The notes under the pieces: generated by a model
Seen by the model: the letters and a program-made list of their open reading frames with translations, nothing else
Databases searched by the model: none
Told to the model about the DNA's origin: nothing
Translations under genes and position numbers: made by a program
NCBI GenBank assembly: GCA_034440575.1
Contig: JAOTOL010001268.1
Coordinates: forward strand, 248,001-312,000
DNA: 64,000 nt
Reading direction: 5' to 3'
Origin: Imbricaverruca yamaguchii
Taxonomy: Eukaryota; Arthropoda; Thecostraca; Neoverrucidae
Part shown: positions 1 through 59,614 of the stretch, piece after piece
Position numbering within the stretch: position 1 is the first letter of the stretch
How the letters are laid out: every line of letters starts with the position of its first letter

Positions 1-290
1 CCAGGGTGGCCTACAGATCACAGAAAGGTCGTCAGAGTAGCCAGGATAGACTGTTGGTTATATGTATACAGATCACTAGAGCAGCCAGGGTGGCCTATAG
101 ATCACATAAAGGTCATTAGAGCAGCTAGGATAGCCTGCATGTCACAGAAAGGTCGCCAGAGCAGGCAGCGTCGCCTGCAGGTCAGTTAAAGGTCATCAGA
201 GCAGCTAGGGTCGCCTGCCGGTCACAGAAAGGTCGCCAGAGCAGCCATCGTAGACTACAAGCCACAAAACGGTCACCGGGTGCATCGCTT
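1..290. repeat. Minisatellite with acceptor plus start of the next exon
   Basis: Degenerate unit of about 43-50 bp. On the minus strand it reads ctgtgacctgcag|GCGACCCTGGCTGCTCTG. The AG is followed by codons for A-T-L-A-A-L, what the family would have after the AEETQ end of the 913-1047 exon. The true exon should lie left of base 1. Confidence 0.6.
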
Positions 291-626
291 TATATACTGT
301 TGGTGGTACCCAAGCACTACAATTACGTTTAGCACTCTTAGCTGAATAGTCTCCGAGGTAAGACGATGAGCTCCAATGAAGTGGTGTGGCCGGGGGCGTG
401 TAATTGCGTGTCGTTCTCCGGCTGATACCTTCTGAATGTGAGCGGAAATGACGCTCCGTATTTGAGTGCGCGCCGAGCCTCCAATGCCCCTCCCTGCAGC
501 CTGGTCCCTCCCAAAGCTGCTGAACATGGTGCCTGTGTCTGACCTGGCGACCTGCCTGTGCTGCTGCAGTATGTGCGCCAGCATCACCTGGGTCTTCTAT
601 GAGCACCATGTCCACCTGAGTCTCCT

Positions 627-912
627 ATGAGTCTCCTTCGGACGTTCCAGCCTCAGAGCCCCCTGCGAGCACCAGCCCCACCCAGGTCTCCCGTAGGTTT
701 GTCGGCCTCACCTGGGCCTTCTGTGAGCACGAGTCTCACCTGGGTCTCCCTGTGTTTCTCGGCTTCACCTGAGCCCCCTATGAGCACCATCCCCACCTTC
801 GTCTCCCTTGTGTTTCTCGGTTTCACCTGAGCCGCCTGTGAGCACTAGCCCCACCTGGGCCTCCCTCGAGTCTCTCAGCTTCACCAGAGTCTCCTGTGAG
901 CACCAGTCTCAC
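627..912. repeat. Donor-side minisatellite of the 913-1047 exon
   Basis: Degenerate tandem units of about 50 bp whose minus strand repeats the exon end and donor (GAGACCCAG|gtgagact), followed by gtgctcacag. Confidence 0.75.
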
Positions 913-1047
913 CTGGGTCTCCTCGGCCAGGGCCTGCTGTTTCTCGGCCTCCAGCGAGTGCAGTTCGCGGCGATGCTTGTCCTCCAGTTCGGCGATGATG
1001 CGTCGGTGCGAGTTCTCCATGGCAACCAGGCCCTTCTCACACAGCGC
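913..1047 (-). CDS. osp: osp exon, coiled coil with family signature
   Basis: Phase 0-0 exon of 45 codons, from ALCEKGLVAMENSH to EKQQALAEETQ. Acceptor is gtggccag|GCG and donor is CCCAG|gtgaga. The pattern of a Cys-Glu-Lys-Gly start, a Met-Glu-x-Ser-His step and a Leu-Ala-Glu-Glu-Thr end is the MPRIP/TRIOBP C-terminal coiled-coil signature as I recall it. This is the most 3' exon visible. In those relatives the next residues are of the type Ala-Thr-x-x-Ala-(Leu/Ile)-Glu, which agrees with the coding content of the array at 1-290. Confidence 0.9.
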
Positions 1048-1489
1048 CTGGCCACGGCAAAACGACAACGTCAGCATACAGACTTCTACCCATATAGGCT
1101 CGCATACACACAGCGCGAGTTCTCCATGGCAACCAGGCCATTTTCACACAGCGCCTGACAACAGCCAAACGATTACGTCAACACACAGACACCCACCCAT
1201 ATACACGGTGAGCGACGCACAGAAATAACACCCTCCATTCTCATCAATATATCTATGGGACAAAGTATCTTAGACAGACAAGAGATTCCCCCAAAAGAAG
1301 ATGTGTTGACGTCAAGAGGGAGATGCACAGGGAACGCACAGAGACAAACGACAAATGCACAGGGAAACGAGAGACGACCAGGGGTGATGTCTGCACCTAC
1401 TGAGGTCAAAGAGGATTTCAGATGCTTTACAATGGAGGGTAAAACCAACATGTTGGATAAAGGATGCTCTTACAGCAGGCTGTGCATAA

Positions 1490-1815
1490 GAACTGTTGTA
1501 ATCACAGCAATGAGCTCACCACCTCCCGCCGGGTGCATACAGTAACCATTTGACCACCTCCTGCAGGATACACAAAGCAACCACCACAACACACAAAGTA
1601 CACCCAAGGTACACACAAAGTAAACGCACACACACAAAGTAAACACAAAGTGTACCAAAGGGTACACAGCAACCACTTCACCACCATCCCGACAGGGTGC
1701 ACACAATAAGCACCTCACCACCACCCCCACAGGGCGTACACAATAAGCACCTCACCACCACCCCCACAGGGCGTACACAATAAGCACCTCACCACCACCC
1801 CTGCGGGTGGTAGAG
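1490..1815. repeat. Intronic minisatellite, about 38 bp unit
   Basis: Repeats of caccaccacccccacaggg with gtacacaataagcacctca; no splice site involved. Confidence 0.7.
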
Positions 1816-1989
1816 ACGAGTGTACTGCTGGATAAGATATTCCACAGAGCTTACTCATATGCCAATCAGTCATCGATAGAACAACCACCCTGCCAAATAT
1901 AAAGCGCAACATAACAAGTTATTTCGCACTTTAACATCTGTGTTCGCACCAAGTCCCTGCCGCCCCGAGCGATTACCTCAGCTGTCCCG

Positions 1990-2480
1990 ACACCCCGCTC
2001 GACATCATACCGCTGTCCCGACACCCCCACCCGACCTCAACCCACGGTCCCGACACCCCCACCCGACCTCAACCCACGGTCCCGACACCCCCACCAGACC
2101 TCAACCCACGGTCCCGACACCCCCACCAGACCTCACCCCACGGTCCCGACACCCCCCACCAGACCTCAACCCACGGTCCCGACACCCCACCAGACCTCAA
2201 CCCACGGTCCCGACACCCACGACCCGACCCCACCCCCGACCTCAACCACGACACCCCCACCAGACCTCAACCCACGGTCCCGACACCCCCACCAGACCTC
2301 AACCCACGCGACCCCCACCGGACCTCACCCCACTCCCGGCACTACCCCCCCGACCTCAACCCACGGTCCCGGTACCCACCGCCAGACCTCACCGCACGGT
2401 CTGGGTACCGCCGCCCGACCTCACCCTCAGCTGCTGGTACCCCCAGTCAGCCCCACCCTGAGCTGTTGGTATACCCCGGC
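1990..2480. repeat. Donor-side minisatellite of the 2486-2698 exon
   Basis: About 32-bp units (cgacacccccaccagacctc). On the minus strand the units nearest the exon read GCTGAGG|gtgaggtcgg, like the true donor. More distant ones decay to gttgaggtct. Confidence 0.7.
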
Positions 2481-2485
2481 CTCAC

Positions 2486-2698
2486 CCTCAGCTGCTCGAT
2501 CTCGGCCTGGTATTTGCGGCGGATGCCCTCCTCGGCCAGCGCCTCCTCGGTGGGCCGCTGTCCGGAGGCGGCAGACTCGTACTGGTCGCGCAGGGTCGAG
2601 ATCTGCGCCTCGTACTCGGTCTCCAGACTCTCCAGCCGACGCCGCAGCAGGTGCACCTCGCTGGCCAGCGCCTCCTTCTCCCGCTCATACGTGGCCGT
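2486..2698 (-). CDS. osp: osp exon, coiled coil
   Basis: Phase 0-0 exon of 71 codons, TATYEREKEALASEV through RRKYQAEIEQLR. Acceptor ctgacccccag|ACG, donor CTGAGG|gtgagg. The join EIEQLR + ALCEKGL to the next exon fits the family. The exon's first 20-45 bases and its acceptor are repeated about 40 times in the array immediately upstream (2699-4915). Its donor is repeated in degraded form in the array downstream (1990-2480). Confidence 0.9.
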
Positions 2699-4915
2699 CT
2701 GGGGGTCAGTCACCTCGCTGGTCAGGGCCTCCTTCTCCCGCTCATACGTGGCCGTCTGAGGGTCAGTCACCTCGCTGGTCAGTCTTCTCCCGCTCATACG
2801 TGGCCGTCTGAGGGTCAGTCACCTCGATGGTCAGTCTCCTCCCGCTCATACGTGGCCGTCTGGGGGTCAGTCACCTCGCTGTGTCTTCTCCCGCTCATAC
2901 GTGGCCGTCTGGGGGTCAGTCACCTCGCTGGTCAGTCTTCTCCCGCTCATACGTGGCCGTCTGGGGGTCAGTCACCTCGCTGGTCAGTCTCCTCCCGCTC
3001 ATACGTGGCCGTCTGGGGGTCAGTCACCTCGCTGGTCAGTCTCCTCCCGCTCATACGTGGCCGTCTGGGGGTCAGTCACCTCGCTGGTCAGTCTTCTCCC
3101 GCTCATACGTGGACGTCTGGGGGTCAGTCACCTCGCTGGTCAGTCTCCTCCCGCTCATACGTGGACGTCTGAGGGTCAGTCACCTCGCTGGTCAGTCTTC
3201 TCCCGCTCATACGTGGACGTCTGAGGGTCAGTCACCTCGCTGGTCAGTCTCTTCCCGCTCATACGTGGCCGTCTGGGGGTCAGTCACCTCGCTGGTCATC
3301 CCCTCTCTCCCGCTCATACGCGGACGTCTGGGGGTCAGTCACCTCGCTGGTCAGTCTCCTCCCGCTCATACGTGGCCGTCTGGGGGTCAGTCACCTCGCT
3401 GGTCAGGTCTCCTCCCGCTCATACGTGGACGTCTGAGGGTCAGTCACCTCGCTGGTCAGTCCTCCTCCCGCTCATACGTGGACGTCTGGGGGTCAGTCAC
3501 CTCGCTGGTCAGTCTCCTCCCGCTCATACGTGGCCGTCTGGGGTCAGTCACCTCGCTGGTCAGTCTCCTCCCGCTCATACGTGGCCGTCTGGGGGTCAGT
3601 CACCTCGCTGGTCAGTCTTCTCCCGCTCATACGTGGCCGTCTGAGGGTCAGTCACCTCGCTGGTCAGGGCCTCCTTCTCCCGCTCATACGTGGCCGTCTG
3701 GGGGTCAGTCACCTCGCTGGTCAGTCTCCTCCCGCTCATACGTGGACGTCTGGGGGTCAGTCACCTCGCTGGTCAGTCTCCTCCCGCTCATACGTGGCCG
3801 TCTGGGGGTCAGTCACCTCGCTGGTCAGTCTCCTCCCGCTCATACGCGGACGTCTGGGGGTCAGTCACCTCGCTGGTCAGTCTCCTCCCGCTCATACGTG
3901 GACGTCTGAGGGTCAGTCTCCTCCCGCCCATACGTGGACGTCTGAGGGTCAGTCACCTCGCTGGTCAGTCTCCTCCCGCTCATACGTGGACGTCTGGGGG
4001 TCAGTCACCTCGCTGGTGTCTCTCCTCCCGCTCATACGCGGACGTCTGGGGGTCAGTCACCTCGCTGGTCAGTCTCCTCCCGCTCATACGTGGCCGTCTG
4101 GGGGTCAGTCACCTCGCTGGTCAGCCTCTCCCGCTCATACGTGGCCGTCTGGGGTCAGTCACCTCGCTGGTCAGTCTCCTCCCGCTCATACGTGGACGTC
4201 TGAGGGTCAGTCACCTCGCTGGTCAGTCTCCTCCCGCTCATACGTGGCCGTCTGGGGGTCAGTCACCTCGCTGGTCAGTCTCCTCCCGCTCATACGTGGA
4301 CGTCTGAGGGTCAGTCACCTCGCTGGTCAGTCTCCTCCCGCTCATACGTGGACGTCTGGGGGTCAGTCACCTCGCTGGTCAGTCTTCTCCCGCTCATACG
4401 TGGCCGTCTGGGGGTCAGTCACCTCGCTGGTCAGTCTCCTCCCGCTCATACGTGGACGTCTGGGGGTCAGTCACCTCGCTGGTCAGTCTCCTCCCGCTCA
4501 TACGTGGACGTCTGGGGGTCAGTCACCTCGCTGGTAGTCTCCTCCCGCTCATACGCGGACGTCTGGGGGTCAGTCACCTCGCTGGTCAGTCTCCTCCCGC
4601 TCATACGTGGACGTCTGGGGTCAGTCACCTCGCTGGTCAGTCTCCTCCCGCTCATACGTGGCCGTCTGGGGTCAGTCACCTCGCTGGTCAGTCTCCTCCC
4701 GCTCATACGTGGACGTCTGGGGGTCAGTCACCTCGGTAGTCCTCCCGCTCATACGTGGACGTCTGAGGGTCAGTCACCTCGCTGGTCAGTCTCCTCCCGC
4801 TCATACGTGGACGTCTGGGGGTCAGTCACCTCGCTGGTCAGCGCCTCCTTCTCCCGCTCATACGTGGACGTCTGGGGGTCAGTCACCTCCCTGGTCACAG
4901 GCTCCTTCTCCCGCT
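2699..4915. repeat. Acceptor-side minisatellite of the 2486-2698 exon, about 40 copies
   Basis: The unit on the minus strand is ctgacccccag|ACG(G/T)CCACGTATGAGCGGGAG followed by gactgaccagcgaggtga: the exon's acceptor and first codons. Copies at both ends are 57 bp and in frame (TATYEREKEALTSEVTDPQ). Most of the middle copies are 52 bp. Confidence 0.92.
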
Positions 4916-5184
4916 CACATGTGAACGTCTCGGTGCCACGATCACTAAGTCAAACATACCAGTCTGCACTCACAGACCATCTGGTCACATGCTGCCCATA
5001 CAAGAAAGAGGCAGGTCACAGATGTTCCGCCACCGGGCCATCCCTTATATGAGATTGCCTATAGAGAACATGATCGTAAACTGTAGCAAATGCACAGATC
5101 GTTACGATGTGCGCAATTGAGATATTTCGCCTGCCTATTGAGGCGCCAGATCAGCGCTCCGGGCCGTCATCAATATGGCGCTGT

Positions 5185-5346: not shown

Positions 5347-5364
5347 TATGGCGCTGTAACGTAC

Positions 5365-5467
5365 CACTTTGTTGACCTCCGAGGTCATCTCGCGCCGCAG
5401 CTGCTCCAGCTCAGAGTCCTGCACCTTCCGCAGTGCCTTCAGCTCCGACGTGTGCTCCGACGAGATC
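5365..5467 (-). CDS. osp: osp exon, coiled coil
   Basis: Exon of 103 bases: one leading G, then 34 codons, ISSEHTSELKALRKVQDS to REMTSEVNKV. The G completes an ACG (Thr) codon begun by AC at the end of the exon at 10804-10922. Acceptor gcgtccag|GATC, donor AAAGTG|gtacgt. A SINE with clean target-site duplications has inserted about 17 bp beyond the donor (5185-5346). Confidence 0.88.
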
Positions 5468-8098: not shown

Positions 8099-8142
8099 GA
8101 GGCAGTCGTCCTCGGTTGGACGACTGCCTCAGGGCGCGCCAT
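8087..8142. repeat. Perfect 25-bp inverted repeat with 6-base loop
   Basis: Arms 8087-8111 and 8118-8142 (atggcgcgccctgaggcagt and its complement, extended by five bases) flank tcggtt. It marks the right edge of the insertion. Confidence 0.9.
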
Positions 8143-10803
8143 AGGACGGCGTGGTACTGATGTGTAGCTGTGGTTGGGGGTAGGACGGAACGGTACTGAC
8201 GTGTAGCTGTAGTTGGTGGGTAGGACGGCGTGGTACTGGTGTGTAGCTGTGGTTGGTGGGTAGGACGGAGCACGGGCTTACTGACGTGTAGCTGTGGTTG
8301 GTGGGTAGGACGGCGTGGTACTGATGTGTAGCTGTGGTTGGTGGGTAGGACGGAGCGGTACTGACGTGTAGCTGTAGTTGGTGGGTAGGACGGAGCGGTA
8401 CTGACGTGTAGCTGTAGTTGGTGGGTAGGACGGACGGGTGGTATGTGTGAGCGGTACTGATTGTAGCTGTGGTTGGTGGGTAGGACGGCGTGGTACTGAT
8501 GTGTAGCTGTAGTTGGTGGGTAGGACGGAGCGGTACTGATGTGTAGCTGTAGTTGGTGGGTGGGACGGCGTGGTACTGATGTGTAGCTGTAGTTGGTGGG
8601 TAGGACGGAGCGGTACTGATGTGTAGCTGTAGTTGGTGGGTAGGACGGCGTGGTACTGGTGTGTAGCTGTGGTTGGTGGGTAGGACGGAGCGGTACTGAC
8701 GTGTAGCTGTGGTTGGTGGGTAGGACGGCGTGGTACTGATGTGTAGCTGTGGTTGGTGGGTAGGACGAGCGGACTGACGTGTAGCTGTGGTTGGTGGGTA
8801 GGACGGGCGGTACTGATGTGTAGCTGTAGTTGGTGGGTAGGACGGAGCGGTACTGACGTGTAGCTGTGGTTGGTGGGTAGGACGGAGCGGTACTGATGTG
8901 TAGCTGTAGTTGGTGGGTAGGACGGAGCGGTACTGATGTGTAGCTGTGGTTGGTGGGTAGGACGGCGCGGTACTGATGTGTAGCTGTGGTTGGTGGGTAG
9001 GACGGCGTGGTACTGATGTGTAGCTGTGGTTGGTGGGTAGGACGGCGTGGTACTGATGTGTAGCTGTAGTTGGTGGGTAGGACGGCGTGGTACTGATGTG
9101 TAGCTGTGGTTGGTGGGTAGGACGGCGTGGTACTGATGTGTAGCTGTGGTTGGTGGGTAGGACGGAGCGGTACTGATGTGTAGCTGTGGTTGGTGGGTAG
9201 GACGGCGTGGTACTGATGTGTAGCTGTGGTTGGTGGGTAGGACGGAGCGGTACTGATGTGTAGCTGTGGTTGGTGGGTAGGACGGAGCGGTACTGATGTG
9301 TAGCTGTGGTTGGTGGGTAGGACGGAGCGGTACTGATGTGTAGCTGTGGTTGGTGGGTAGGACGGAGCGGTACTGACGTGTAGCTGTGGTTGGTGGGTAG
9401 GACGGAGCGGTACTGACGTGTAGCTGTGGTTGGTGGGTAGGACGGAGCGGTACTGATGTGTAGCTGTGGTTGGTGGGTGGGACGGAGCGGTACTGGTGTG
9501 TAGCTGTGGTTGGTGGGTAGGACGAGCGGGTACTGATGTGTAGCTGTGGTTGGTGGGTGGGACGGCGTGGTACTGATGTGTAGCTGTGGTTGGTGGGTGG
9601 GACGGCGTGGTACTGATGTGTAGCTGTGGTTGGTGGGTAGGACGGAGCGGTACTGATGTGTAGCTGTGGTTGGTGGGTAGGACGGAGCGGTACTGATGTG
9701 TAGCTGTGGTTGGTGGGTAGGACGGAGCGGTACTGATGTGTAGCTGTGGTTGGTGGGTAGGACGGAGCGGTACTGATGTGTAGCTGTGGTTGGTGGGTAG
9801 GACGGAGCGGTACTGACGTGTAGCTGTGGTTGGTGGGTAGGACGGAGCGGTACTGATGTGTAGCTGTGGTTGGTGGGTAGGACGGAGCGGTACTGATGTG
9901 TAGCTGTAGTTGGTGGGTAGGACGGCGTGGTACTGATGTGTAGCTGTAGTTGGTGGGTAGGACGGCGGGTATGTGTAGCTGTGGTTGGTGGGTAGGACGG
10001 GCGGTACTGATGTGTAGTTGGTGGGTAGGACGGCGTGGTACTGATGTGTAGCTGTGGTTGGTGGGTAGGACGGAGCGGTACTGATGTGTAGCTGTGGTTG
10101 GTGGGTAGGACGGCGTGTATGATGTGTAGCTGTAGTTGGTGGGTAGGACGGCGTGGTACTGATGTGTAGCTGTGGTTGGTGGGTAGGACGGAGCGGTACT
10201 GATGTGTAGCTGTGGTTGGTGGGTAGGACGGAGCGGTACTGATGTGTAGCTGTGGTTGGTGGGTAGGACGGAGCGGTACTGATGTGTAGCTGTGGTTGGT
10301 GGGTAGGACGGTACTGATGTGTAGCTGTGGTTGGTGGGTAGGACGGCGTGGTACTGATGTGTAGCTGTGGTTGGTGGGTAGGACGGAGCGGTACTGGTGT
10401 GTAGCTGTGGTTGGTGGGTAGGACGGCGTGGTACTGGTGTGTAGCTGTAGTTGGTGGGTGGGATCGGCGGTACTGATGTGTAGCTGTGGTTGGTGGGTAG
10501 GACGGAGCGGTACTGATGTGTAGCTGTAGTTGGTGGGTGGGACGGAGTGGTACTGATGTGTAGCTGTAGTTGGTGGGTAGGACGGCGTGGTACTGATGTG
10601 TAGCTGTGGTTGGTGGGTAGGACGGAGCGGTACTGATGTGTAGCTGTGGTTGGTGGGTAGGACGGAACGGTACTGATGTGTAGCTGTTGGTTGGATGGGT
10701 AGGACGGTCGGAACGGTACTGATGTGTAGCTGTGGTTGGTGGGTAGGACGGAGCGGTACTGACGTGTAGCTGTGGTTGGTGGGTAGGACGGAGCGGTACT
10801 CAC
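8143..10803. repeat. 40-bp minisatellite abutting the 10804-10922 exon donor
   Basis: About 65 copies of ggtactgatgtgtagctgtg + gttggtgggtaggacggcgt. On the minus strand the unit has acac(g/a)tcagtaccgc, close to the true donor AC|gtgagtaccgc. The 908- and 841-residue ORFs across it result from a stop-free repeat. Confidence 0.92.
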
Positions 10804-10922
10804 GTGTCAATCCTGGTGCGAAGCTCCTCACATCGATGGCATGGCTCGCTGTCACATGGTGGCGCCGCCCTGTAGGCCTGCACTGAAACTAGCTCCTGGC
10901 GCACCTCTCCCAGCGGCACCGT
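10804..10922 (-). CDS. osp: osp exon with Cys pair motif
   Basis: Exon of 39 codons plus 2 bases, TVPLGEVRQELVSV to CEELRTRID, then AC. Acceptor tgtattgcag|ACG and donor GACAC|gtgagt. It contains Cys residues in PCDSEPCHRCEEL. It is flanked upstream by the 21-bp acceptor-bearing array and downstream by the 40-bp donor-like array, so both splice sites lie inside minisatellite sequence. Confidence 0.88.
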
Positions 10923-13300
10923 CTGCAATACAATGGCGCCAGCTTACAATACAATGGCGCCAGATTACAATACAGGGGCGCCAGCTTACAATACAGGGGC
11001 GCCAGATTACAATACAGGGGCGCCAGTCTACAATACAGTGCCACCAGCCTACAGCACAGTGGCGTCAGATCTACAATACAGTGGCACCAGTCTGCAATAC
11101 AGTGGCACCAGTCTACAATACAGTGGCACCAGTCTGTAATACAGTGGCACCAGTCTGCAATACAGTGGCACCAGTCTGTAATACAATGGCACCAGTCTGT
11201 AATGCAATGGCACCAGTCTGTAATACAGTGGCACCAGTCTGTAATACAATGGCACCAGTCTGCAATACAGTGGCACCAGTCTGCAATATGGTGGCACCAG
11301 TGTGCAATACAATGACACCAGTCTACAATACAGTGGCACCAGTCTACAATACAGTGGCACCAGTCTACAATACAGTGGCATCAGTCTACAATACAGTGGC
11401 ACCAGTCTACAATACAGTGGCACCAGTCTGCAATACAGTGGCATCAGTCTACAATACAGTGGCACCAGTGTGCAATACAATGGCACCAGTCTACAATACA
11501 GTGGCACCAGTCTACAATACAGTGGCACCAGTCTACAATACAGTGGCACCAGTCTACAATACAGTGGCACCAGCCTACAATACAGTGGCACCAGTCTACA
11601 ATACAGTGGAACCAGTCTACAATACAGTGGCACCAGTCTACAATACAGTGGCATCAGTCTACAATACAGTGGCACCAGTCTGCAATACAGTGGCATCAGT
11701 CTACAATACAGTGGCACCAGTGTGCAATACAATGGCACCAGTGTGCAATACAATGGCACCAGTCTGCAATACAGTGGCACCAGTCTACAATACAGTGGCA
11801 CCAGTCTACAATACAGTGGCACCAGCCTACAATACAGTGGCATCAGTCTACAATACAGTGGCACCAGTCTACAATACAGTGGCACCAGTCTACAATACAG
11901 TGGCACCAGTCTGCAATACAGTGGCACCAGTCTACAATACAGTGGCACCAGTGTGCAATACAATGGCACCAGTCTACAATACAGTGGCACCAGTCTGCAA
12001 TACAGTGGCACCAGTCTACAATACAGTGGCACCAGTCTGCAATACAGTGGCACCAGTCTACAATACAGTGGCACCAGTGTGCAATACAATGGCACCAGTC
12101 TACAATACAGTGGCACCAGTCTGCAATACAGTGGCACCAGTCTACAATACAGTGGCACCAGTCTACAATACAGTGGCACCAGCCTACAATACAGTGGCAC
12201 CAGTCTACAATACAGTGGAACCAGTCTACAATACAGTGGCACCAGTCTGCAATACAGTGGCATCAGTCTACAATACAGTGGCACCAGTCTACAATACAGT
12301 GGCACCAGTCTGCAATACAGTGGCATCAGTCTACAATACAGTGGCACCAGTGTGCAATACAATGACACCAGTCTACAATACAGTGGCACCAGTCTACAAT
12401 ACAGTGGCACTAGTCTGCAATACAGTGGCACCAGTCTACAATACAGTGGCACCAGTCTACAATACAGTGGCACCAGCCTACAATACAGTGGCACCAGTCT
12501 ACAATACAGTGGCACCAGCCTACAACACAGTAGGGTCAGATCACAATACAATGGCACCAGTCTACAATACAGTGGCACCAGTCTGTAATACAATGGCACC
12601 AGTCTGTAATACAATGGCACCAGTCTACAATACAGTGACACCAGTCTGTAATACAATGACACCAGTCTGTAATACAATGACACCAGTCTGCAATACAGTG
12701 GCACCAGTCTGCAATACAGTGGCATCAGTGTGCAATACAATGACACCAGTCTACAATACAGTGACACCAGTCTACAATACAGTGGCACCAGTCTACAATA
12801 CAGTGGCATCAGTCTGTAATACAGTGGCACCAGTCTACAATACAGTGACACCAGTCTGTAATACAATGACACCAGTCTGTAATACAGTGGCACCAGTCTA
12901 CAACACAGTGGCATCAGATCACAACACAATGGCACCAGTCTACAATACAGTGACACCAGTTTACAATACAGTGGCACCAGTCTACAATACAATGACACCA
13001 GTCTACAATACAGTGGCACCAGTCTACAATACAGTGGCACCAGTCTGCAATACAGTGGCATCAGTCTACAATACAGTGGCACCAGTCTACAATACAGTGG
13101 CACCAGTGTGCAATACAATGGCACCAGTCTACAATACAGTGGCACCAGTCTACAATACAGTGGCACCAGTCTACAATACAGTGGCACCAGTCTACAATAC
13201 AGTGGCACCAGTCTACAATACAGTGGCACCAGTCTACAAAACAGTGGCACCAGTCTACAATACAATGGCACCAGCCTACAGCCATCACAACCGTCAGGGC
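10923..13300. repeat. 21-bp minisatellite, acceptor side of the 10804-10922 exon
   Basis: More than 100 copies of caatacagtggcaccagtct(a). On the minus strand each is ccactgtattg(c/t)agactggtg, repeating the true acceptor cattgtattgcag|ACGGTG. It resumes at 20705-21005 beyond the inserted LINEs. Confidence 0.92.
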
Positions 13301-15173: not shown

Positions 15174-15180
15174 GCAGGAC

Positions 15181-21361: not shown

Positions 21362-21604
21362 ATGTTTCCTCACCCGAATGTCACAGCTGTTGATCGTGTG
21401 CCTGACCCGAAAGTCACAGCTGTTGATCATGGGCCTCACCTGAATGTCACAGCTGTTGATCATGTGCCTCACCCGAAAGTCACAGCTGTTGATCATGGGC
21501 CTCACCTGAATGCCACAGCTGTTGACCATGGGCCTCACCTGAATGTCACAGCTGTTGATCATGTGCCTGACCCGAATGTCACAGCTGTTGACCATGGGCC
21601 TCAC
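21362..21604. repeat. 33-bp donor-side minisatellite of the 21605-21727 exon
   Basis: About seven units. On the minus strand each is ATCAACAGCTGTGACATTC(A/G)G|gt, equal to the exon end and donor. The period is 11 codons, so the exon frame stays open through the array (INSCDIQVRPM). Confidence 0.9.
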
Positions 21605-21727
21605 CTGAATGTCACAGGTGTTGATCATGCCGGTGATGTCGGAGACGCGTCGGCGCGACTTGTCCACGGAGCGAGGTCTCACGCGTACCCGCCGCAGAGA
21701 CTCCACCTCCCGCTCCAGGGTGCGCAC
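21605..21727 (-). CDS. osp: osp exon, coiled coil then Arg-rich
   Basis: Phase 0-0 exon of 41 codons: VRTLEREVESLRR, an Arg-rich stretch PRSVDKSRRRVSD, then ITGMINTCDIQ. Acceptor tgtcgccag|GTG, donor ATTCAG|gtgagg. The last eleven codons and the donor are tandemly repeated downstream with a 33-bp period that keeps the frame. Confidence 0.88.
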
Positions 21728-23472: not shown

Positions 23473-23649
23473 CTGCTGACGGTGCTGGGCTCGCTCCTGC
23501 TGCAGCTGGCTGTCACACTGGGCGCGCACGGCGGCCACAGTCTCCTGGGTGCGCCGGCAGAACTCGTCCACCGTCTGGCCGGTGGGCAGCGCCACTCCGA
23601 AGTCGGCCAGCTCGGTGCGGCACTGTTCCATCGCAGCTCGGAACAGGTG
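23473..23649 (-). CDS. osp: osp exon, coiled coil
   Basis: Phase 0-0 exon of 59 codons, HLFRAAMEQCRTELADF through QLQQERAQHRQQ. Acceptor gtcggccag|CAC, donor CAGCAG|gtgaca. The upstream region (23650-24240) has repeated variants of the acceptor (ttgaccag|cacctgttg). The downstream region (23200-23470) has short repeats of the type cagcggctgacaca resembling the donor context. Confidence 0.88.
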
Positions 23650-24240
23650 CTGGCCGACACAGCACAACACAGCGTCAACAGGTGCTGGTCAACACCAAAA
23701 TACAGTCAATAGGTACTGGTCAACACAACACAGTACAGCACATCAACAGGTGCTGCCCGACACAACAACGCAGCGTTAGCAGGTACTGGTCAACACAACA
23801 CAACACAACGCAGCGTCAAGAGTTGGTTATTGGTTTTACGACACATCGACCGTTGAGTCATGTAGCGTCGCCAATCTCTCACGCCGATTGGTCGCGGGCG
23901 AAGAGTAGCGACAGGTGAGACTCGAACCCACAACCCTTTGATTGTGAGACGAGCAACTTACCCCTAGACCACTCATCCCCCAGCGTCAAGAGGTGCTGGT
24001 CAACACAACGCAGACCATATGTGCTAATTAACACAACACAACGCAGTGTCAACAGGTGCTAGCTGACAACACAACACAACGCAGCGCCAACAGGTGCTGG
24101 GCAACACAACAGAGAGTTGAGAGGCGCTAGTCAACACAGAACAACACAGTCAAGAGGTACTGGTCAACACATCACAACACAACGCAGCGTTAGTAGATGC
24201 TAGCCGACAACACAACACACAGTCAACAGGCGTTGGCCAA
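23650..24240. repeat. Degenerate acceptor-side repeats of the 23473-23649 exon
   Basis: Variants of caacaggtgctggtcaacac; the minus strand gives ttgaccag|cacctgttg, as at the true acceptor. Confidence 0.65.
23823..23980 (-). mobile_element. SINE family A with 12-bp target-site duplication
   Basis: Flanked by cagcgtcaagag at 23811-23822 and 23981-23992. B-box-like gactcgaacccacaac in complement. Confidence 0.88.
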
Positions 24241-25744: not shown

Positions 25745-25844
25745 CTGCAGCTCCGCCTGGTCGGTGGCCTCCTCGGCGTCTCCGAAGAAGACGGCCAGCG
25801 CAGAGTCGCGCTGCAGCGCCGCGTCCAGGGGCACCACCTCCCAG
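25745..25844 (-). CDS. osp: osp exon (5' boundary uncertain)
   Basis: Open coding sequence WEVVPLDAALQRDSALAV to ATDQAELQ, donor CTGCAG|gtacac, phase 0 at the 3' end. The start given uses acceptor accccag|C, the only one whose phase fits the preceding exon (28464-28652). The frame stays open and coding-like further upstream (GIIEEDPS, to about 25887), where another acceptor (gacgag|CC) would leave a phase conflict. Either the shorter start is right or a small exon is missing. Confidence 0.62.
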
Positions 25845-25887
25845 CTGGGGTCCTCCTCGATAATGCCCAGCGGCGGCTCGGGCCCGG

Positions 25888-26600
25888 CTCGTCACACGGA
25901 CAGGTAGCTGCCGGAGCGCAGTCACGTACGTACGTACGATACAGGCATGAGTTAGCCAAATCACGTACGTCACATATTACTGCTAGGGGAGCTGGCCACG
26001 TCCTCGTCACCGATCACGGACAGGTAGCTGCCGGGGAGGCGCCAGTCACGTCAGGTACGTCACGTCACGTCACGTCACGTCACGTCACAGATTACAGGCA
26101 TGAGTTAGCCAAATCACGTCACGTCACATATTACTGCCAGGTGGGAGCTGGCCACGTCCTCGTCACCGATCACGGAGAGGTAGCTGCCGGGGAGGCGCCA
26201 GTAACGTCACGTCACGTCACGTCACGTCACAATTACAGGCATGAGTTAGCCAAATCACGTCACGTCACATATTACTGCCAGGTGGGAGCTGGCCACGTCC
26301 TCGTCACCGATCGCGGAAAGGTAGCTGCCGGAGAAGCTCCAGGAACGTCACGTCACGTCACATATAACTGCTAAGTGGGAGCTGGCCCCGGTCACGTCAC
26401 GTCACGTCACAGATTACAGGCATGAGTTAGCCAAATCACGTCACGTCACATATTACTGCCAGGTGGGAGCTGGCCACGTCCTCGTCACCGATCACGGACA
26501 GGTAGCTGCCGGGGAGGCGCCAGTCAGGTCACGTCACTGACTGCTGGTGTGAGCTTGCGTCGTCACGTCACGTCACGTCACAGGCTACCGGTGTGAGTTG
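25888..26600. repeat. Minisatellite upstream of the 25.8 kb exon, with (cgtca)n
   Basis: Roughly 110-bp units with cggacaggtagctgccgggg and runs of cacgtcacgtca. The unit resembles sequence 5' of the exon (cggcagctacctgtccgtg, gacgag). Confidence 0.75.
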
Positions 26601-31891: not shown

Positions 31892-32090
31892 CTTTGATAC
31901 CCCACAGCGACACACACAGGCGAGAACGACTCCACCATCTGACGACCGGGGTCACTGGTCAGATAGCCACCCGAACAGCGCGAAACGACTCCACCACGCG
32001 AGGGGGGGAGGACTGGTCTGATAACCCACAGCCGATCATCCGACCACACAGCGCCGAGAACGACTCCACCATCTGACGACCGGGGGTCCC
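31892..32090. repeat. Acceptor-side partial exon copies
   Basis: Three copies of ggagtcgttctcggcgctg-like sequence (start of the 31721-31891 exon) with gatgaccggggtc-type spacers. Confidence 0.75.
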
Positions 32091-32189
32091 TGATCTGATA
32101 ATCACCACAGCACACCACATACCAGGTTGGACCATCCACTCGAAGCGTTGCATTGAGTGGCGCTGTGCTGTCAATTAGATTCAACCTGA

Positions 32190-32499: not shown

Positions 32500-33412
32500 C
32501 ACGCTCGTGCCCCGCCGGACAGACCCCATAGAAGAGAGACCCCAGGCACGTAACCCACCGGACAGTCCCCAGACGCTTAACCTTCAGGACAATCCCCAGA
32601 CACGTACCCCGCCGTCCCACTCCCCGTCCCCACCGACACGTATCGCAGCACGCCCATCCGTACCCCCCGTCTCCTCCCCAGACACGTACCCCCCGTGCCC
32701 AGACACGTACCCCGTCCCCGAATCACGTACCCTCCCCCAGACACGTACCCCGCCGTCCCCGCCCAGACACGTACCCGCCGTCCCCAGACACGTACCCCAC
32801 CGTCTCCCATCCCCAGACACGTACCCCACCGTCTCCCATCCCCAGACACGTACCCCACCGTCTCCCATCCCCAGACACGTACCCCACCGTCTCCCATCCC
32901 CAGACACGTACCCCCGCCCCCACCCCAGTCACGTACCCCACCGTCCCTCCCAGACACGTACCCGCCCGACACGTACCCCGCCGTCCCCAGACACGTACCC
33001 CGCCGTCCCCGTCCCGGGACACGTACCCCGCCGTCTCCCCCCCCCCAGACACGTACCCCACCGTCCCCCAGACACGTACCCGCCGCCCCCAGACACGTAC
33101 CCCGCCGTCCCCAGACACGTACCCCACCGCCCCCCCAGACACGTACCCTCCCCACGCCGCCCCCACCCCCAGACACGTACCCCGCCATCCCCCGCCCCAG
33201 ACACGTCCCCACCCCACGACACGTCCCGCCCCACCCCAACACGTACTCCGCCGTCCCCAGACACGTACCCCACCCGCGTACCCCGCCGTCCCCAGACACG
33301 TACCCGCCGCCCCCAGACACGTCCCCGTCCCCAGACACGTACCCAGCCGCCCCCAGTCACGTACCCCACCGTCCCCCCAGACACGTACACCGCCGTCCCC
33401 CCAGGCACGTAC
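32500..33412. repeat. Donor-side minisatellite of the 33413-33637 exon
   Basis: About 40 units of 20-24 bp. The minus strand is gggg|gtacgtgtctggggac, repeating the true donor GGG|gtacgtg. Confidence 0.9.
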
Positions 33413-33637
33413 CCCGCTCGAGACGTTCTCCACCAGGCCGGTCTGCAGCCGGTGCCGTAGCGTGCCCATCTTGCGGTGTGTCTCGAGCAGCTCGCGCAGC
33501 TTCAGCTGGCGCTCGAACGGCTCCGGCTCGGCGGCTGCCTGCAGCGCCTCCGACAGGCAGGACAGCAGCACTGTCTGGTACGCCAGCTTCTCGGCGGCCA
33601 GCCGGCGGCGCTCCTCGGACGTCCACCGCCGGTCCGC
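33413..33637 (-). CDS. osp: osp exon, coiled coil
   Basis: Phase 0-0 exon of 75 codons, ADRRWTSEERRRLAAEKL, AYQTVLLSCLSEALQAA, then LRELLETHRKMGTLRHRL to ENVSSG. Acceptor gtgcctcag|GCG, donor AGCGGG|gtacgt. Both sides are minisatellite: a gtacgtg donor array downstream (32500-33412) and a 50-bp acceptor array upstream (33638-34480). Confidence 0.9.
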
Positions 33638-34480
33638 CTGAGGCACAGAGCGACGGGTCACTGGACACTCGGGACACTGCCTGACGGACAGGGCGACACG
33701 TCACTGGACACGTCACTGGACTCGTCACTGGACACTCGGGACACTGCCTGACGCACAGAGCGACGTGTCACTGGACACTCGGGACACTGCCTGACGACAC
33801 ACAGAGCCACACTGCACTGGACACTCGGGACACTGCCTGACGACACACAGAGCCACACTGCACTGGACACGTCACTGGACACTCCTCATCGGGACACTGC
33901 CTGACGAGACACAGAGCGACACGTCACTGGACACTCGGGACACTGCCTGACGAGACACAGAGCCACACTGCACTGGACACTCGGGACACTGCCTGACGAG
34001 ACACAGAGCCACACTGCACTGGACACTCGGGACACTGCCTGACGACACACAGAGCCACACTGCACTGCTCGGGACACTGCCTGACGACACACAGAGCCAC
34101 ACTGCACTGGACACTCGGGACACTGCCTGACGACACACAGAGCCACACTGCACTGGACACTCGGGACACTGCCTGACGACACACAGAGCCACACTGCACT
34201 GGACACTCGGGACACTGCCTGACGAGACACAGAGCCACACTGCACTGGACACTCGGGACACTGCCTGACGACACACAGAGCCACACTGCACTGGACACTC
34301 GGGACACTGCCTGACGACACACAGAGCCACACTGCACTGGACACCAGCGTGGACACTGGCCCTTGGACTTTTGGACACACAGAGCCACACTGCACTGGAC
34401 ACTCGGGACACTGCCTGACGACAACACAGAGCCACACTGCACTGGACACTCGGGGATCACTGTCCCCTGACGACACACAG
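33638..34480. repeat. 50-bp acceptor-side minisatellite of the 33413-33637 exon
   Basis: Minus strand ctctgtgtgtcgtcag|gcagtgtccc resembles the true ctctgtgcctcag|GCGG. Resumes at 37595-37715. Confidence 0.88.
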
Positions 34481-34489
34481 AGCCATTAA

Positions 34490-42874: not shown

Positions 42875-43439
42875 CTGTGGCGGGCAAGTCGTGCGGGTCA
42901 AAGTCGGGTCACAAGGCTCACTGGGATGTGACACGGGCAGGTCATCAGGGTCTAGGGCACTCTCGTGCATATCACGAAGAAGAAAAACAAACAGCGGAAT
43001 ATCGGTAGACGTGATGTAGGGCTGAGAAGTGGATGGGGGAGGTACGCTCCAAGTTGTTTCTTGACGGTCGACGCCGTATGCACTATACTATTTTATTTGC
43101 TTTCCATGAGATCTGCTGGCGGTCGTAAACTGCCCGTCCATCCGCCTTTTTTGGGCGAGGGGAGATATCTCTCAGTCACATCCAGCCATCAGCTGACACG
43201 CACCCAGCTCGTCTTCCAACGTCCAAAGTCCGAACACTGGCAGCAGTGGTCTGGGGAGTTGGCCAGTCGGTCGTCCGACCGGTCTAGCAGTGGTGCCATC
43301 AGTGCGGGGGGGCGACGGTCAGGGGCGATCGTTTCAACAGGGATGAAGGCGGAACTCAACATCCTGGAAGTGCCGCTAAATCGGGAGTTGGAAGTGCCGC
43401 TAAACCCGGAGCCTGGAAGTGTCGATAATTCGTCAATAA

Positions 43440-44584
43440 CCTAGAGGTACCCAGAGCTGGACTGTACTGACCTGGAGGTACCCAGAGCCGGACTACACTG
43501 ACCTGGAGGTACCCAGAGCCGGACTGTACTGACCCGGAGGTACCCAGAGCCGGACTGTACTGACCTGGAGGTACCCAGAGCCGGACTGCACTGACCTGGA
43601 GGTACCCAGAGCCGGACTACACTGACCTGGAGGTGCCCAGAGCCGGACTGTACTGACCTGGAGGTGCCCAGAGCCGGACTGTACTGACCTGGAGGTACCC
43701 AGAGCCGGACTGTACTGACCTGGAGGTACCCAGAGCCGGACTGTACTGACCTGGAGGTACCCAGAGCCGGACTGTACTGACCTGGAGGTACCCAGAGCCG
43801 GACTGTACTGACCTGGAGGTACCCAGAGCCGGACTACACTGACCTGGAGGTACCCAGAGCCGGACTACACTGACCTGGAGGTACCCAGAGCCGGACTGTA
43901 CTGACCTGGAGGTACCCAGAGCCGGACTGTACTGACCTGGAGGTACCCAGAGCTGGACTGTACTGACCTGGAGGTACCCAGAGCCGGACTGTACTGACCT
44001 GGAGGTACCCAGAGCCGGACTACACTGACCTGGAGGTACCCAGAGCCGGACTGTACTGACCTGGAGGTACCCAGAGCCGGACTGTACTGACCTGGAGGTA
44101 CCCAGAGCCGGACTGTACTGACCTGGAGGTACCCAGAGCCGGACTGTACTGACCTGGAGGGTGTACCAGAGCCGGACTGTACTGACCTGATGGAGGTACC
44201 AGAGCCGGACTACTTGTCTGACCTGGAGGTACCCAGAGCCGGACTCCGAATGACTGGAGGTACCAGAGCCGGACTGTACTGACCTGGAGGTCCCAGAGCC
44301 GGACTGTACTGACCTGGAGGTACCCAGAGCCGGACTGTACTGACCTGGAGGTACCCAATGCCGGACTGTACTGACCTGGAGGTACCCGGCTTTTTGACCT
44401 GGAGGTACCCAGAGCCGGACTGTACTGACCTGGAGGTACCCAGAGCCGGACTGTACTGACCTGGAGGTACCCAGAGCCGGACTGTACTGACCTGGAGGTA
44501 CCCAGAGCCGGACTGTACTGACCTGGAGGTACCCAGAGCCGGACTGTACTGACCTGGAGGTACCCAGAGGCGGACTGTACTGAC
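43440..44584. repeat. 31-bp donor-side minisatellite of the 44585-44752 exon
   Basis: About 35 copies. The minus strand unit is ccggctctgggtacctccag|gtcagtacagt, i.e. exon end plus a strong donor. Confidence 0.93.
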
Positions 44585-44752
44585 CTGGAGGTACCCAGAG
44601 CCGGACTGGCCGTCAGAGCCGGGTTGGATCTCAGCTCCCGCAGCTGTGTCGTCAGCGACTCGTTCTCCTCGATGCCCTGCTGCAGTCTGGAGCGGACCGT
44701 CTCCAGCTCCTGACGCACTCCAGCCAGCTCCTGACGGGCCTCCCGGGCTTCC
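44585..44752 (-). CDS. osp: osp exon, coiled coil; donor lies in a tandem array
   Basis: One base completing AGG (Arg), then 55 codons, EAREARQELAGVRQELE, ENESLTTQLRELRSN, ending PALGTS plus AG. Acceptor gctccag|GGAA, donor CTCCAG|gtcagt. The last 20 or so coding bases and the donor belong to a 31-bp unit repeated about 35 times downstream. The 3' end given is the first copy; later donors are equally good. Confidence 0.8.
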
Positions 44753-45328: not shown

Positions 45329-45480
45329 CTGCGCTGTTTCTCCAGCTCCGTGCTGCGGTCCTCCAGCAGGGAGCGCAGCTCGTGCACCAGATCCTTCAGC
45401 TTGTACACCTCAGACTTGTCCTGCTTGATGGCGTCGCGCTTGCTCTGCTGCGTCTCCAGCTCCGCGCGCAGCCGCGCCAT
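45329..45480 (-). CDS. osp: osp exon, coiled coil
   Basis: 50 codons plus AG: MARLRAELETQQSKRDAI, KLKDLVHELRSLLEDRS, ending TELEKQR. Acceptor gaccgcacag|ATG, donor CGCAG|gtggga. The acceptor and first five exon bases occur a second time 65 bp upstream. Confidence 0.9.
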
Positions 45481-45605
45481 CTGTGCGGTCACGCGATCAT
45501 GCGGTCATGTGCTGCAACCTGCGGACTTGTTTGGGGAGTCGCCATCTGTGCGGTCACGCGATCATGCGGTCATGTGCTGCAACCTGCGGACTTGTTTGGG
45601 GAGTC
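45476..45605. repeat. 65-bp direct duplication including an exon acceptor
   Basis: Two copies (45476-45540, 45541-45605), each with acceptor cgcacag and the first five bases (ATGGC) of the 45329-45480 exon. Confidence 0.9.
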
Positions 45606-46135
45606 GAGTGTCACATTAAGTGTGATGGTGTTGGTAGGGGTGACACCGGGGACCATGGGGTCGCAGTCATAGTGGTCATAGTGGAGGATCACGAGGGCAA
45701 TATCAGGGACTGTGATGAATCGGAGTTAAGGAGCGCGTCGACTGTCAGGGTCATCTTTCTCATGGACTGTATGGCGCCAAATGGGTGTGTGGGGAAGGCA
45801 GGCGCGGGGGGGGGGACATAGAACGGTTAGGTGGCAGGGCCGTAGGGGGCACATGAGGGACCATGGGGCCACAGCAGCAGGCCGCGAGGGTCATATCACG
45901 GACTGTACGGTGTCACAAGTGTGTGGGAAGGGTGAGTGAACGCAGAACAGGTGGGCGGTGGGGCCGATGCGGAGTCTGATGCGTACCCGTAAGCCCAGTT
46001 TCCAGGCAGGCAGTGAGGTCCAAGCTGAGATTGCACCAAGCGACTGTGTGGCCGACAACAATAGCACGCGGGTGACGTTGGCTAGCTGCGGTGACCCTGG
46101 CCGGCTGCGGTGACCTTGACCGTCGCGCCACTGAC

Positions 46136-50702: not shown

Positions 50703-50766
50703 CTGGCAGCAGCAGCTGGCTCAGCTGCTGCTGCAGGCTGTCGGCCCGCTGTCGCCACTCGTCCAC
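50703..50766 (-). CDS. osp: osp candidate exon inside acceptor array, boundaries unclear
   Basis: Reads VDEWRQRADSLQQQLSQLLLP, clearly coiled coil. It lies 37 bp from the next exon, too close for a normal intron, and no good donor follows. Two readings are possible: a separate exon whose acceptor is one of the gtcccccag|GAGAGCCGCGG copies, or continuity with the 50529-50665 exon if the 13-G run were one base longer. Confidence 0.45.
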
Positions 50767-50779
50767 TGTCGGCCCGCTG

Positions 50780-51590
50780 TCGCCCCCGTCCACCTCCCGA
50801 CCGCGGCTCGGGACACCGTGACACTGGTGACCGGGCCCTACACTCCCGACCGCGGCTCTCCTCCCGCCGCGGGGGGACACCGTGACACTGGTGACCGGGC
50901 CCTACACTGTCGGCCCGCTGTCGCCACTCGTCCACCTCCCGACCGCGGCTCTCCTGGGGGACACCGTGACACTGGTGACCGGGCCCTACACTGTCGGCCC
51001 GCTGTCGCCACTCGTCCACCTCCCGACCGCGGCTCTCCTGGGGGACACCGTGACACTGGTGACCGGGCCCTACACTGTCGGCCCGCTGTCGCCACCCGTC
51101 CACCTCCCGACCGCGGCTGGGGACACCGTGACACTGGTGACCGGGCCCTACACTGTCGGCCCGCTGTCGCCACCCGTCCACCTCCCGACCGCGGCTCTCC
51201 TGGGGGACACCGTGACACTGGTGACCGGGCCCTACACTGTCGGCCCGCTGTCGCCACCCTCGCTGGGGACACCGTGACCTGGTGACCGGGGTGGCCCGCT
51301 GTGCACCGTCACCTCCCGACCGCGGCTCTCCTGGGGGCCCGTGACACTGGAACTGTCGCCCTTCGTCCACCTCCCGACCGCGGCTCTCCTGGGGGACACC
51401 GTGACACTGGTGACCGGGCCCTACACTGTCGGCCCGCTGTCGCCACTCGTCCACCTCCCGACCGCGGCTCTCCTGGGGGACACCGTGACACTGGTGACGT
51501 GGCCCGTTGCCTTACACTGTCGGCCCGCTGTCGCCACCCGTCCACCTCCCCCCCCCCGACTGCGGCTTCCCTAAGGGACACCGTACCATC
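50780..51590. repeat. Acceptor and exon-fragment minisatellite, about 80-90 bp
   Basis: Each minus-strand unit has acggtgtcccccag|GAGAGCCGCGG then GTGGACGAGTGGCGACAGCG. Reads ESRGREVDEWRQRADS: acceptor plus part of the 50.5-50.8 kb coding sequence. Confidence 0.85.
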
Positions 51591-57701: not shown

Positions 57702-57799
57702 TCGACGGATTTGATGGGCAACTGGTTGAGTGCCCAGAGCGCAACCAAGAAGGGCCCTTGTGGCTCATAGTTGCACTAATCTTGTATGTCTTTGTTTTT

Positions 57800-58010
57800 A
57801 TGACTGCTGTGAGGAATGCTGTGTGGACTGTTGTGAGGACTGTTAGGAGGACTGTTGAGAAGACTGTTGAGAGGACTGCTGTGAGGACTGCTGTGAGGAC
57901 TGCTGAAAAGACTGCTTAGAGAACTGCTGATAGAACTGCTGAGAATATTGCTGAGAGAACTGTTGAGACGATTGCTGAGAGAACGAGTGAAAAGATCCGA
58001 CAGATACTGA
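57800..58010. repeat. Short repeats (gaggactgctgt)n
   Basis: Irregular 12-15 bp units; minus strand reads SSQQ/SQQF repeats. Similar gaggactgctga sequence lies just left of LINE copy 3 (about 54513), so the LINE may have entered this array. Confidence 0.75.
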
Positions 58011-58019
58011 TGTTTTCGA

Positions 58020-58290
58020 AATTGCAGGATTAAATACGATCAGGGGCATTGAAGAAGCTTCCGGGTTCAAACTCAGACGCTTTGGGTCCATAGATACGTT
58101 GATTCGTACGTTGCGAACCAGAAGCACCCCGGTCGGGCACATGACGCAATCACAGGTAATCCAAGTGCAGCAGACCGTGCAAAACGGCCGGCAGGTGCCA
58201 TTATCCGAGTCAAACAGCGCGCAAGCCGCCAGCCCATCACATTCACACTGACGTTCCCCACAGACGGACCGAGACACGTCACACAACCAC
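58020..58290 (-). other. Cys-rich open reading frame, unrecognised
   Basis: Reads CGERQCECDGLAACALF, GTCRPFCTVCCTWITCDC, MCPTGVLLVRNVRINVS, LIVFNPAISKTSVSVGSF. Regular Cys spacing suggests former or actual coding sequence. The adjoining 71-bp array repeats its CGERQCECDGLA part. Confidence 0.4.
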
Positions 58291-59490
58291 ACTGAGTCGC
58301 CAGTCCATCACATTCACACTGACGTTCCCCGCAGACGGACCGAGACACACACAACCACACTGAGTCGCCAGCCCATCACATTCACACTGACGTTCCCCGC
58401 AGATGGACACGTCACACAACCACACTGAGTCGCCAGCCCATCACATTCACACTGACGTTCCCCGCAGACGGACCGAGACACGTCACACAACCACACTGAG
58501 TCGCCAGCCCATCACATTCACACTGACGTTCCCCGCAGACGGACCGAGACACGTCACACAACCACACTGAGTCGCCAGCCCATCACATTCACACTGACGT
58601 TCCCACAGACGGACCGAGACACGTCACACAACCACACTGAGGCGCCAGCCCATCACATTCACACTGACGTTCCCCGCAGACGGACCGAGACACGTCACAC
58701 AACCACACTGAGTCGCCAGCCCATCACATTCACACTGACGTTCCCCACAGACGGACCGAGACACGTCACACAACCACACTGAGTCGCCAGCCCATCACAT
58801 TCACACTGACGTTCCCCGCAGACGGACCGAGACACGTCACACAACCACACTGAGTCGCCAGCCCATCACATTCACACTGACGTTCCCCGCAGACGGACCG
58901 AGACACGTCACACAACCACACTGAGTCGCCAGCCCATCACATTCACACTGACGTTCCCCGCAGACGGACCGAGACACGTCACACAACCACACTGAGTCGC
59001 CAGCCCATCACATTCACACTGACGTTCCCCACAGACGGACCGAGACACGTCACACAACCACACTGAGTCGCCAGCCCATCACATTCACACTGACGTTCCC
59101 CGCAGACGGACCGAGACACGTCACACAACCACACTGAGTCGCCAGTCCATCACATTCACACTGACGTTCCCCGCAGACGGACCGAGACACGTCACACAAC
59201 CACACTGAGTCGCCAGCCCATCACATTCACACTGACGTTCCCCGCAGACGGACCGAGACACGTCACACAACCACACTGAGTCGCCAGCCCATCACATTCA
59301 CACTGACGTTCCCCGCAGACGGACCGAGACACGTCACACAACCACACTGAGTCGCCAGCCCATCACATTCACACTGACGTTCCCCACAGACGGACCGAGA
59401 CACGTCACACAACCACACTGAGTCGCCAGCCCATCACATTCACACTGACGTTCCCCGCAGACGGACCGAGACACGTCACACAACCCAACT
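58240..59490. repeat. 71-bp minisatellite
   Basis: About 17 copies containing cacactgagtcgccagccca, cacattcacactgacgttcc and gcagacggaccgagacacgt. Confidence 0.94.
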
Positions 59491-59524
59491 TGGAGCGGTG
59501 TGACGTCACGGCCGGCCGACCCAC

Positions 59525-59614
59525 CTTGGAGCGGTCCAGGGCGCTGGTGTAGGCGCCCCGGGCGTCCAGCCGGTCAGACAGCATACTGTCACGGAGAGAC
59601 GAGCGCAGCGAGTC
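59525..59614 (-). CDS. osp: osp most 5' confident exon
   Basis: Phase 0-0 exon of 30 codons, DSLRSSLRDSMLSDRLDA then RGAYTSALDRSK. Acceptor cggttccag|GAC, donor TCCAAG|gtgggt. The end cgctccaag recurs once about 30 bp downstream, ahead of the 71-bp array. Confidence 0.83.

Follow-up and report, generated by a model that had tools for sequence, protein, structure and literature searches.

The window analysed here, 64,000 nucleotides of the barnacle Imbricaverruca yamaguchii (GenBank assembly GCA_034440575.1, contig JAOTOL010001268.1, positions 248,001 to 312,000), carries on its minus strand a gene of 26 exons, running from 59614 down to 913, which we identify from its predicted protein as outspread / myosin phosphatase Rho-interacting protein (MPRIP family). 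Its introns are rich in minisatellites, and at about a third of its exon-intron junctions the repeated unit includes the exon's own edge; these arrays, described from the DNA of one gene and one haplotype, are our subject.

The outspread assignment is made because the draft protein matches Pollicipes, Amphibalanus and then mostly insect outspread proteins. Joined exon translations give a draft of 1321 amino acids (aa), whose best match is Pollicipes pollicipes P0001 (69% identity over 100% of the draft), followed by P0002, the Amphibalanus amphitrite “Protein outspread” P0003 and then mostly insect outspread; of 7987 proteins scored, 22 fell below E 0.001. The database name of P0001 is plectin-like, and P0002, P0003 and most of the named insect matches are called outspread. 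The draft includes the coiled-coil region that is homologous to outspread of barnacles and insects, and no minus-strand match to P0001 residues 1-392 or P0002 residues 1-640 was found in the window by tblastn at E 0.01, so the part with the N-terminal PH domain presumably lies upstream of the window. The two Pollicipes proteins are 92.6-99.5% identical to each other along most of their length, and both contain an intron-like stretch past the exon 23 region; their gene models therefore look faulty.

The exon model was drawn from tblastn and from junction alignment to P0001, independently of the repeats, with borders 7/8, 8/9, 10/11, 19/20 and those of exons 23-25 set by eye from the same alignments. 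All donors have GT and all acceptors AG, the nominal exon 3 acceptor excepted, and there is doubt about the 5' ends of exons 3, 16 and 20. The exons to which we return most often, all on the minus strand, are:

59525..59614: exon 1, the 5'-most found in the window (tblastn and P0001 junction alignment)
44585..44752: exon 8 (borders by eye, in frame with P0001)
25745..25907: exon 20 (P0001 junction alignment)
23473..23649: exon 21 (P0001 junction alignment)
21605..21727: exon 22 (P0001 junction alignment)
10804..10922: exon 23 (P0001 alignment; donor by eye)
5368..5467: exon 24 (borders by eye; no junction duplication found)
2486..2698: exon 25 (donor from alignment; acceptor by eye, in frame with P0002)
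913..1047: exon 26, the 3'-most in the window (tblastn and P0001 junction alignment)

Copies of the junctions were sought by aligning a 32-bp window centred on each of 52 junctions (the outer edges of exons 1 and 26 counted) both to the exon's own intron and to each of 26 other introns or flanks. The own intron outscored all 26 others at 18 of the 52, where about 1.9 would be expected by chance, and at a fixed score cut-off of 14 a junction-spanning copy was present in the own intron at 17 of the 52: eight donors (exons 8, 15, 16, 20, 22, 23, 25 and 26) and nine acceptors (exons 3, 7, 15, 17, 20, 21, 23, 25 and 26). Three of these sit at the threshold (exon 15 acceptor, exon 20 donor and exon 25 donor), and the exon 3 acceptor is counted among the 17 at a nominal position. 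The false rate at this cut-off is 1.4%, from 500 intron windows matched to a random other intron, and exon-interior windows had a copy in the flanking intron in 4.3% of 600 sampled. A strict ungapped test retained 7/52 junctions; no junction copy was present at 34/52 (own-intron-best test) or 35/52 (fixed cut-off). The sequence-only reading that preceded this analysis had put the number of affected boundaries at twelve or more, which the 17 bear out, and the 12 edges in 10 exons that it cited (exons named by low coordinate, its “30652 acceptor” being that of exon 30819-30652) are all among them. Most of the 12 are sound; the weak ones are the exon 15 acceptor (score 14, the best of the other introns reaching 12, and no aligned copy), the exon 25 donor, which only reaches the threshold, and the nominally placed exon 3 acceptor. 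Alignment of the exon 20 donor gave no spanning copy, and that of the exon 1 donor gave one short copy, with TT.

Tandem Repeats Finder returned 150 overlapping rows for the window. The arrays at exon edges, all on the minus strand, are given below with their score in the junction test and the copies that keep GT or AG:

654..922: array of 4.6 copies of 58 bp across the exon 26 donor (913); score 21, GT in 6/6 copies
1008..1203: 1.8 tandem copies of 107 bp across the exon 26 acceptor (1047), 40 bp of it coding; score 20, AG in 1/1
2015..2496: 32-bp arrays that extend to the exon 25 donor (2486); score 14, at threshold, GT in 3/3
2678..4930: 52/57-bp array, 43 units, with the exon 25 acceptor and codons TYEREKEALASEV; score 32, AG in 43/43
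8142..10807: 40-bp array that flanks the exon 23 donor (10804); score 15, GT in 11/63 units
10911..13280: 21-bp array, 113 copies, with the exon 23 acceptor and ~12 coding bp; score 17, AG in 50/58; it resumes at 20711-21000, past a long interspersed nuclear element (LINE)
21368..21629: 33-bp array, 8 copies, with the donor of exon 22 (21605); score 30, GT in 8/8
23381-23479: diverged 23-bp array meeting the donor side of exon 21, not counted as duplicated; GT in 0/3
23642..24120: ~33-bp array with the exon 21 acceptor and CACCTGTT; score 18, AG in 8/9 (Tandem Repeats Finder span 23642-23800, further copies to ~24111)
25921..26537: ~141-181 bp array with the exon 20 acceptor; score 18, AG in 4/5, copies reading YLSVIGDED by eye
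30815..31416: 38-bp array with the acceptor of exon 17 (30819); score 16, AG in 4/4
31494..31730: 27-bp array with the donor of exon 16 (31721); score 18, GT in 6/6 (Tandem Repeats Finder end 31664, remainder by eye)
31876..32100: diverged copies of the exon 16 5' edge; 13 against 10 for the best other, below the fixed cut-off
32540..33417: 22-29 bp arrays with the donor of exon 15 (33413); score 19, GT in 6/11
33650..34485: weak 46-bp array next to the exon 15 acceptor (33637); score 14, at threshold, no spanning copy; it continues at 37592-37716
43439..44608: 31-bp array, ~38 copies, with the donor of exon 8 (44585) and ~20 coding bp; score 30, GT in 34/34
45475..45606: 65-bp duplication, 2 copies, with the acceptor of exon 7 (45480); score 18, AG in 1/1
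50738..51550: 84-bp array with the exon 3 acceptor and codons ESRGREVDEWRQRADS (by eye); nominal position, at which the AG count of 0/8 carries no meaning

The arrays arose from the exon edges themselves, since their units carry codons also present in the Pollicipes orthologue: TYEREKEALASEV in the exon 25 array, PALGTS in that of exon 8 and ALCE.GLVAMENS in that of exon 26. They are also independent of one another. Unit lengths at the junctions run from 21 to ~141 bp in Tandem Repeats Finder (~141-181 bp in the exon 20 array) and the units are unrelated in sequence, as the sequence-only reading had noted, which makes for many separate cases and rules out the spread of one repeat family. A search of Rfam yielded nothing at gathering scores.

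In the exon 25 array an older 57-bp form survives in 5 of the 43 units, two next to the exon (2680 and 2737), two at the far end (4853 and 4910) and one inside (3679), the remaining units being mostly of 52 bp; terminal units were thus spared homogenisation here, though the unit at 3679 is an interior one. All seven further copies in the exon 22 array read ..INSCDIQ where the exon reads INTCDIQ, and Pollicipes has Ser at that position.

Array ends pile up at exon edges. When arrays were moved at random inside their own introns, LINEs discounted, the numbers seen were reached in none of 5000 shuffles, either for intron ends with an array within 10 bp (15/50 against 1.6, standard deviation 1.2) or within 50 bp (25/50 against 7.4, standard deviation 2.2); two alternative definitions of an array gave 17 against 1.9 and 12 against 1.1 within 10 bp. 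The permutation of array ends that the sequence-only reading had proposed therefore comes out, for this gene, far above the null. In 19 of the 20 array-bearing introns, at least one array comes to within 40 bp of an exon. Arrays occupy 54% of non-LINE intron sequence; the five array-free introns (of 25) measure 363-788 bp, and once arrays are collapsed the median intron length is 555-595 bp across four settings. These lengths do not favour the idea that tiny ancestral introns explain everything.

Arrays of this kind are known as mirages, minisatellites that span exon-intron boundaries, and the barnacle arrays belong among them. In the passages that deal with them, the lancelet reports name mirages for amphioxus Adh3 and extend them to globin genes (BflGb6, BflGb9), TnC and PGBD5, at 5' or 3' edges, with units of 10 to ~160 bp and AG/GT kept in many copies, not all (PMC3087553, PMC3902484). 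The globin passages add that cluster boundaries escape homogenisation (PMC3087553). As in amphioxus, the barnacle units span exon-intron boundaries (aligned copies at 17/52 junctions), differ between loci and affect both donors and acceptors, eight and nine of them; the copies retain AG/GT in many but not all units, and the ends of the exon 25 array keep an older unit form, like the amphioxus globin mirages. The barnacle case fits all four of these features. It is unlike amphioxus in its host, in having 17/52 edges affected within one gene and in reaching more than 100 copies; what is new is the arthropod host and the density of affected edges. Ordinary intronic minisatellites, or variable number tandem repeats, are likewise tandem, GC-rich (rich in guanine and cytosine) and of the same size range as the barnacle arrays; they differ from the barnacle arrays, whose founder unit at about one junction in three takes in a splice signal along with coding sequence.

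Reports of mirages outside lancelets were absent from the matches listed, in a literature whose coverage is thin for subscription journals. Among barnacle genomes, that of Sacculina is described as 58% repetitive DNA (PMC9582164) and that of Capitulum as 3.53% repeats (PMC8416341), and passages from those two papers make no mention of mirage-like arrays. Tandem genomic duplication has been described as a route of intron gain (PMC4974935, PMC2891723); the barnacle arrays resemble it in that splice signals are copied, and are unlike it in that they enlarge existing introns. The rearranged edge of exon 3 could be an intron-gain candidate.

The explanation we favour, at a probability of about 0.62, is that these mirages began as tandem duplications that merely chanced to span exon-intron junctions and then grew into minisatellites. 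Short tandem duplications would arise throughout the gene, more commonly in GC-rich DNA; those within coding sequence would be purged, and those that are intronic or span a junction would survive, we propose, because splicing at the exon-proximal site would still yield the same mRNA. Slippage or unequal exchange would then expand the survivors and homogenise them from the middle, so that exon-edge copies would be pushed outward and introns inflated from ~0.5 kb to several kb at most, after which the copies would drift, presumably without effect on fitness.

The rates of duplication along the gene bear on whether anything more than this tolerance is required. Per position, duplication rises from ~23% just inside exons through ~29% at the junction itself to 50-62% in introns more than 30 bp from the exon, and this absence of a peak speaks against a special role of edges. 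Each array has one founder unit, and the fair comparison is per founder, with weights that take non-array intron sequence as ancestral: the founder-level rate is then 11.4% (2500 sampled intron positions) against 33% of junctions (p 3.7e-5) when each junction copy is counted as a founder, as protein homology supports, and under the same 1/copies weight the junction rate is 9.5%, not above deep introns. Founders are biased toward GC: their rate in deep introns climbs from 2% below 35% GC to 25% above 70% GC, array starts lie mostly in GC-rich sequence, and the junctions themselves have 65-67% GC.

Several results nonetheless weigh against tolerance and GC as a full account. Matched for GC, 10.1 of 52 junctions would be expected to be duplicated and 17 are (binomial p 0.016), or 16/51 without the nominal exon 3 site (p 0.028). 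In a placement null that lets units straddle the junction and weights them by GC, exon-overlapping arrays number 12 against 5.8 expected with LINEs removed (p 0.006), 12 against 6.7 with all recognised transposable elements removed (p 0.023; a setting with hand-set intervals that reduces intron 23 to 42 bp) and 12 against 6.2 with laxer arrays (p 0.008); in the fourth setting, with stricter arrays, they number 8 against 5.6 (p 0.16). Arrays within 50 bp of an exon number 23-27 against 13.5-15.3 (p 0.0003-0.006), the strict setting apart, where there are 17 against 11.7 (p 0.025). A further difficulty is that the exon-proximal 5' edges of exons 3, 16 and 20 are altered and the distal copies look intact: exon 3 is rearranged, exon 16 has a weak acceptor (AG in 0/2 copies as aligned) and exon 20 has an in-frame TGA after YLSV. 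The distal exon 16 copies read cag joined to ATGGTGGAGTCGTTC (MVESF as in Pollicipes, by eye), which the exon-proximal copy does not, and at the start of exon 20 (25880-25907) the TGA stands in frame while the array copies encode the conserved YLSVIGDED. If splicing simply used the proximal site, such damaged edges would not be expected, barring assembly errors at these places; the cause may be unequal exchange, an array put together wrongly in the assembly, or splicing that truly depends on a different site.

About half of the exon-overlap effect is expected from tolerance and GC without targeting, and what remains is a 1.4- to 2-fold excess, not significant for overlap in one of the four settings; tolerance plus GC may not be the whole cause. 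This residue is what speaks for targeted seeding, in which features of the junctions (co-transcriptional structures, breaks, or CAG/GT-rich microhomology) would raise the duplication rate and introns would grow from their edges. An approximately twofold excess in three of four settings, the 17 junctions against 10.1 and the array near an exon in nearly every array-bearing intron all agree with it; the strict arrays, the missing positional peak, the dependence of the founder excess on counting each junction copy as a founder, and the roughly two thirds of junctions that show nothing in this single gene do not, and we consider targeted seeding unlikely, if the best placed of the alternatives. 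The sequence-only reading had proposed a recurring process that amplifies exon-intron edges: the recurrence stands, and a dedicated process has weak support, since it is simpler to suppose that duplications of GC-rich exon edges are tolerated.

It has also been suggested, in the lancelet work, that mirage copies might see cryptic use (PMC3087553, PMC3902484), and one could suppose that the barnacle copies are kept by selection as spare or competing splice sites. GT/AG is indeed kept in most arrays, and by a simple weight table made for this analysis donor-like sites at or above native strength exceed expectation in introns 8 (32 against 1.3), 15 (27 against 4.5) and 16 (6 against 0.1). The exceptions run the other way: the exon 23 donor array has a consensus without GT, lost in 52 of 63 matched units, the exon 21 donor array keeps none of three, intron 23 holds no donor-like site at native score against 7.6 expected, and introns 22, 25 and 26 hold just 3, 1 and 1. 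Homogenised copies are not independent, and by eye the columns of the splice signal look no better preserved in them than the neighbouring ones. The retention pattern is as drift in homogenised arrays would give and neither shows nor excludes selection. In the lancelet passages, RT-PCR (reverse transcription-polymerase chain reaction) suggests that mirages leave splicing undisturbed (PMC3087553), and the Adh and TnC mirages are reported without aberrant mRNAs (PMC3087553, PMC3902484). Selected redundancy is thus very unlikely.

Equally improbable is an assembly artefact, in which collapsed or duplicated noisy reads made or distorted the arrays: the damaged edges of exons 3, 16 and 20, indels between array units and the AT-rich, low-complexity stretch near 36.3-37.6 kb would suit it, but the many unrelated arrays, which contain diverged variants and derive each from the edge of its own exon, speak against it, as do the open frames of most exons that align to Pollicipes. 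Copy numbers and those three edges may be wrong in the assembly, the phenomenon itself not. The stretch in question, 36300-37590, resembles poor sequence or mis-assembly.

Other repeats share the window with the arrays. One family resembling non-LTR (lacking long terminal repeats) retroelements occurs at 13281-20710, 54538-57801 and 25055-25704, each copy inside or beside a minisatellite array, with units of 21, 12 and 18 bp respectively; its main stretches are 85-92% identical and two short ones 74-78%. A fourth insert (34486-37591) lies within the 46-bp array. Retroelements may insert into arrays by preference, or such insertions may simply be tolerated; as a source of the units retroelements are ruled out, since they interrupt or adjoin the arrays. 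A dispersed repeat of ~160-170 bp, tRNA-like and in both orientations by eye, is found at 5176-5348, 22635-22797, 23822-23988, 26750-26912, 47466-47632, 48928-49088 and 63579-63740. Intron 23 holds a repeated segment (6871-7275 and 7561-7962), an inverted duplication by eye and probably a decayed transposable element. Upstream of exon 1, a 24-bp array of 40 copies (61549-62518) is open in several frames on both strands, with open reading frames of up to 421 aa.

Among the literature found, mirages are otherwise described only in lancelet genes, and their presence at about one in three junctions of an arthropod gene suggests that the mirage process may be general wherever minisatellites abound. 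Such a gene is a natural test of how the spliceosome chooses among dozens of near-identical sites, and it illustrates a route for intron growth and possibly, as the lancelet reports have also modelled (PMC3087553, PMC3902484), for intron gain. A stronger proposal, that splice junctions are seeding points of minisatellites and that introns of this barnacle lineage grow from their edges by a junction-linked process, strikes us as rather doubtful; were it true, the arrays would store older versions of exon edges, such as the Ser codon, as in Pollicipes, kept by the exon 22 array, and might be a source of new mini-exons.

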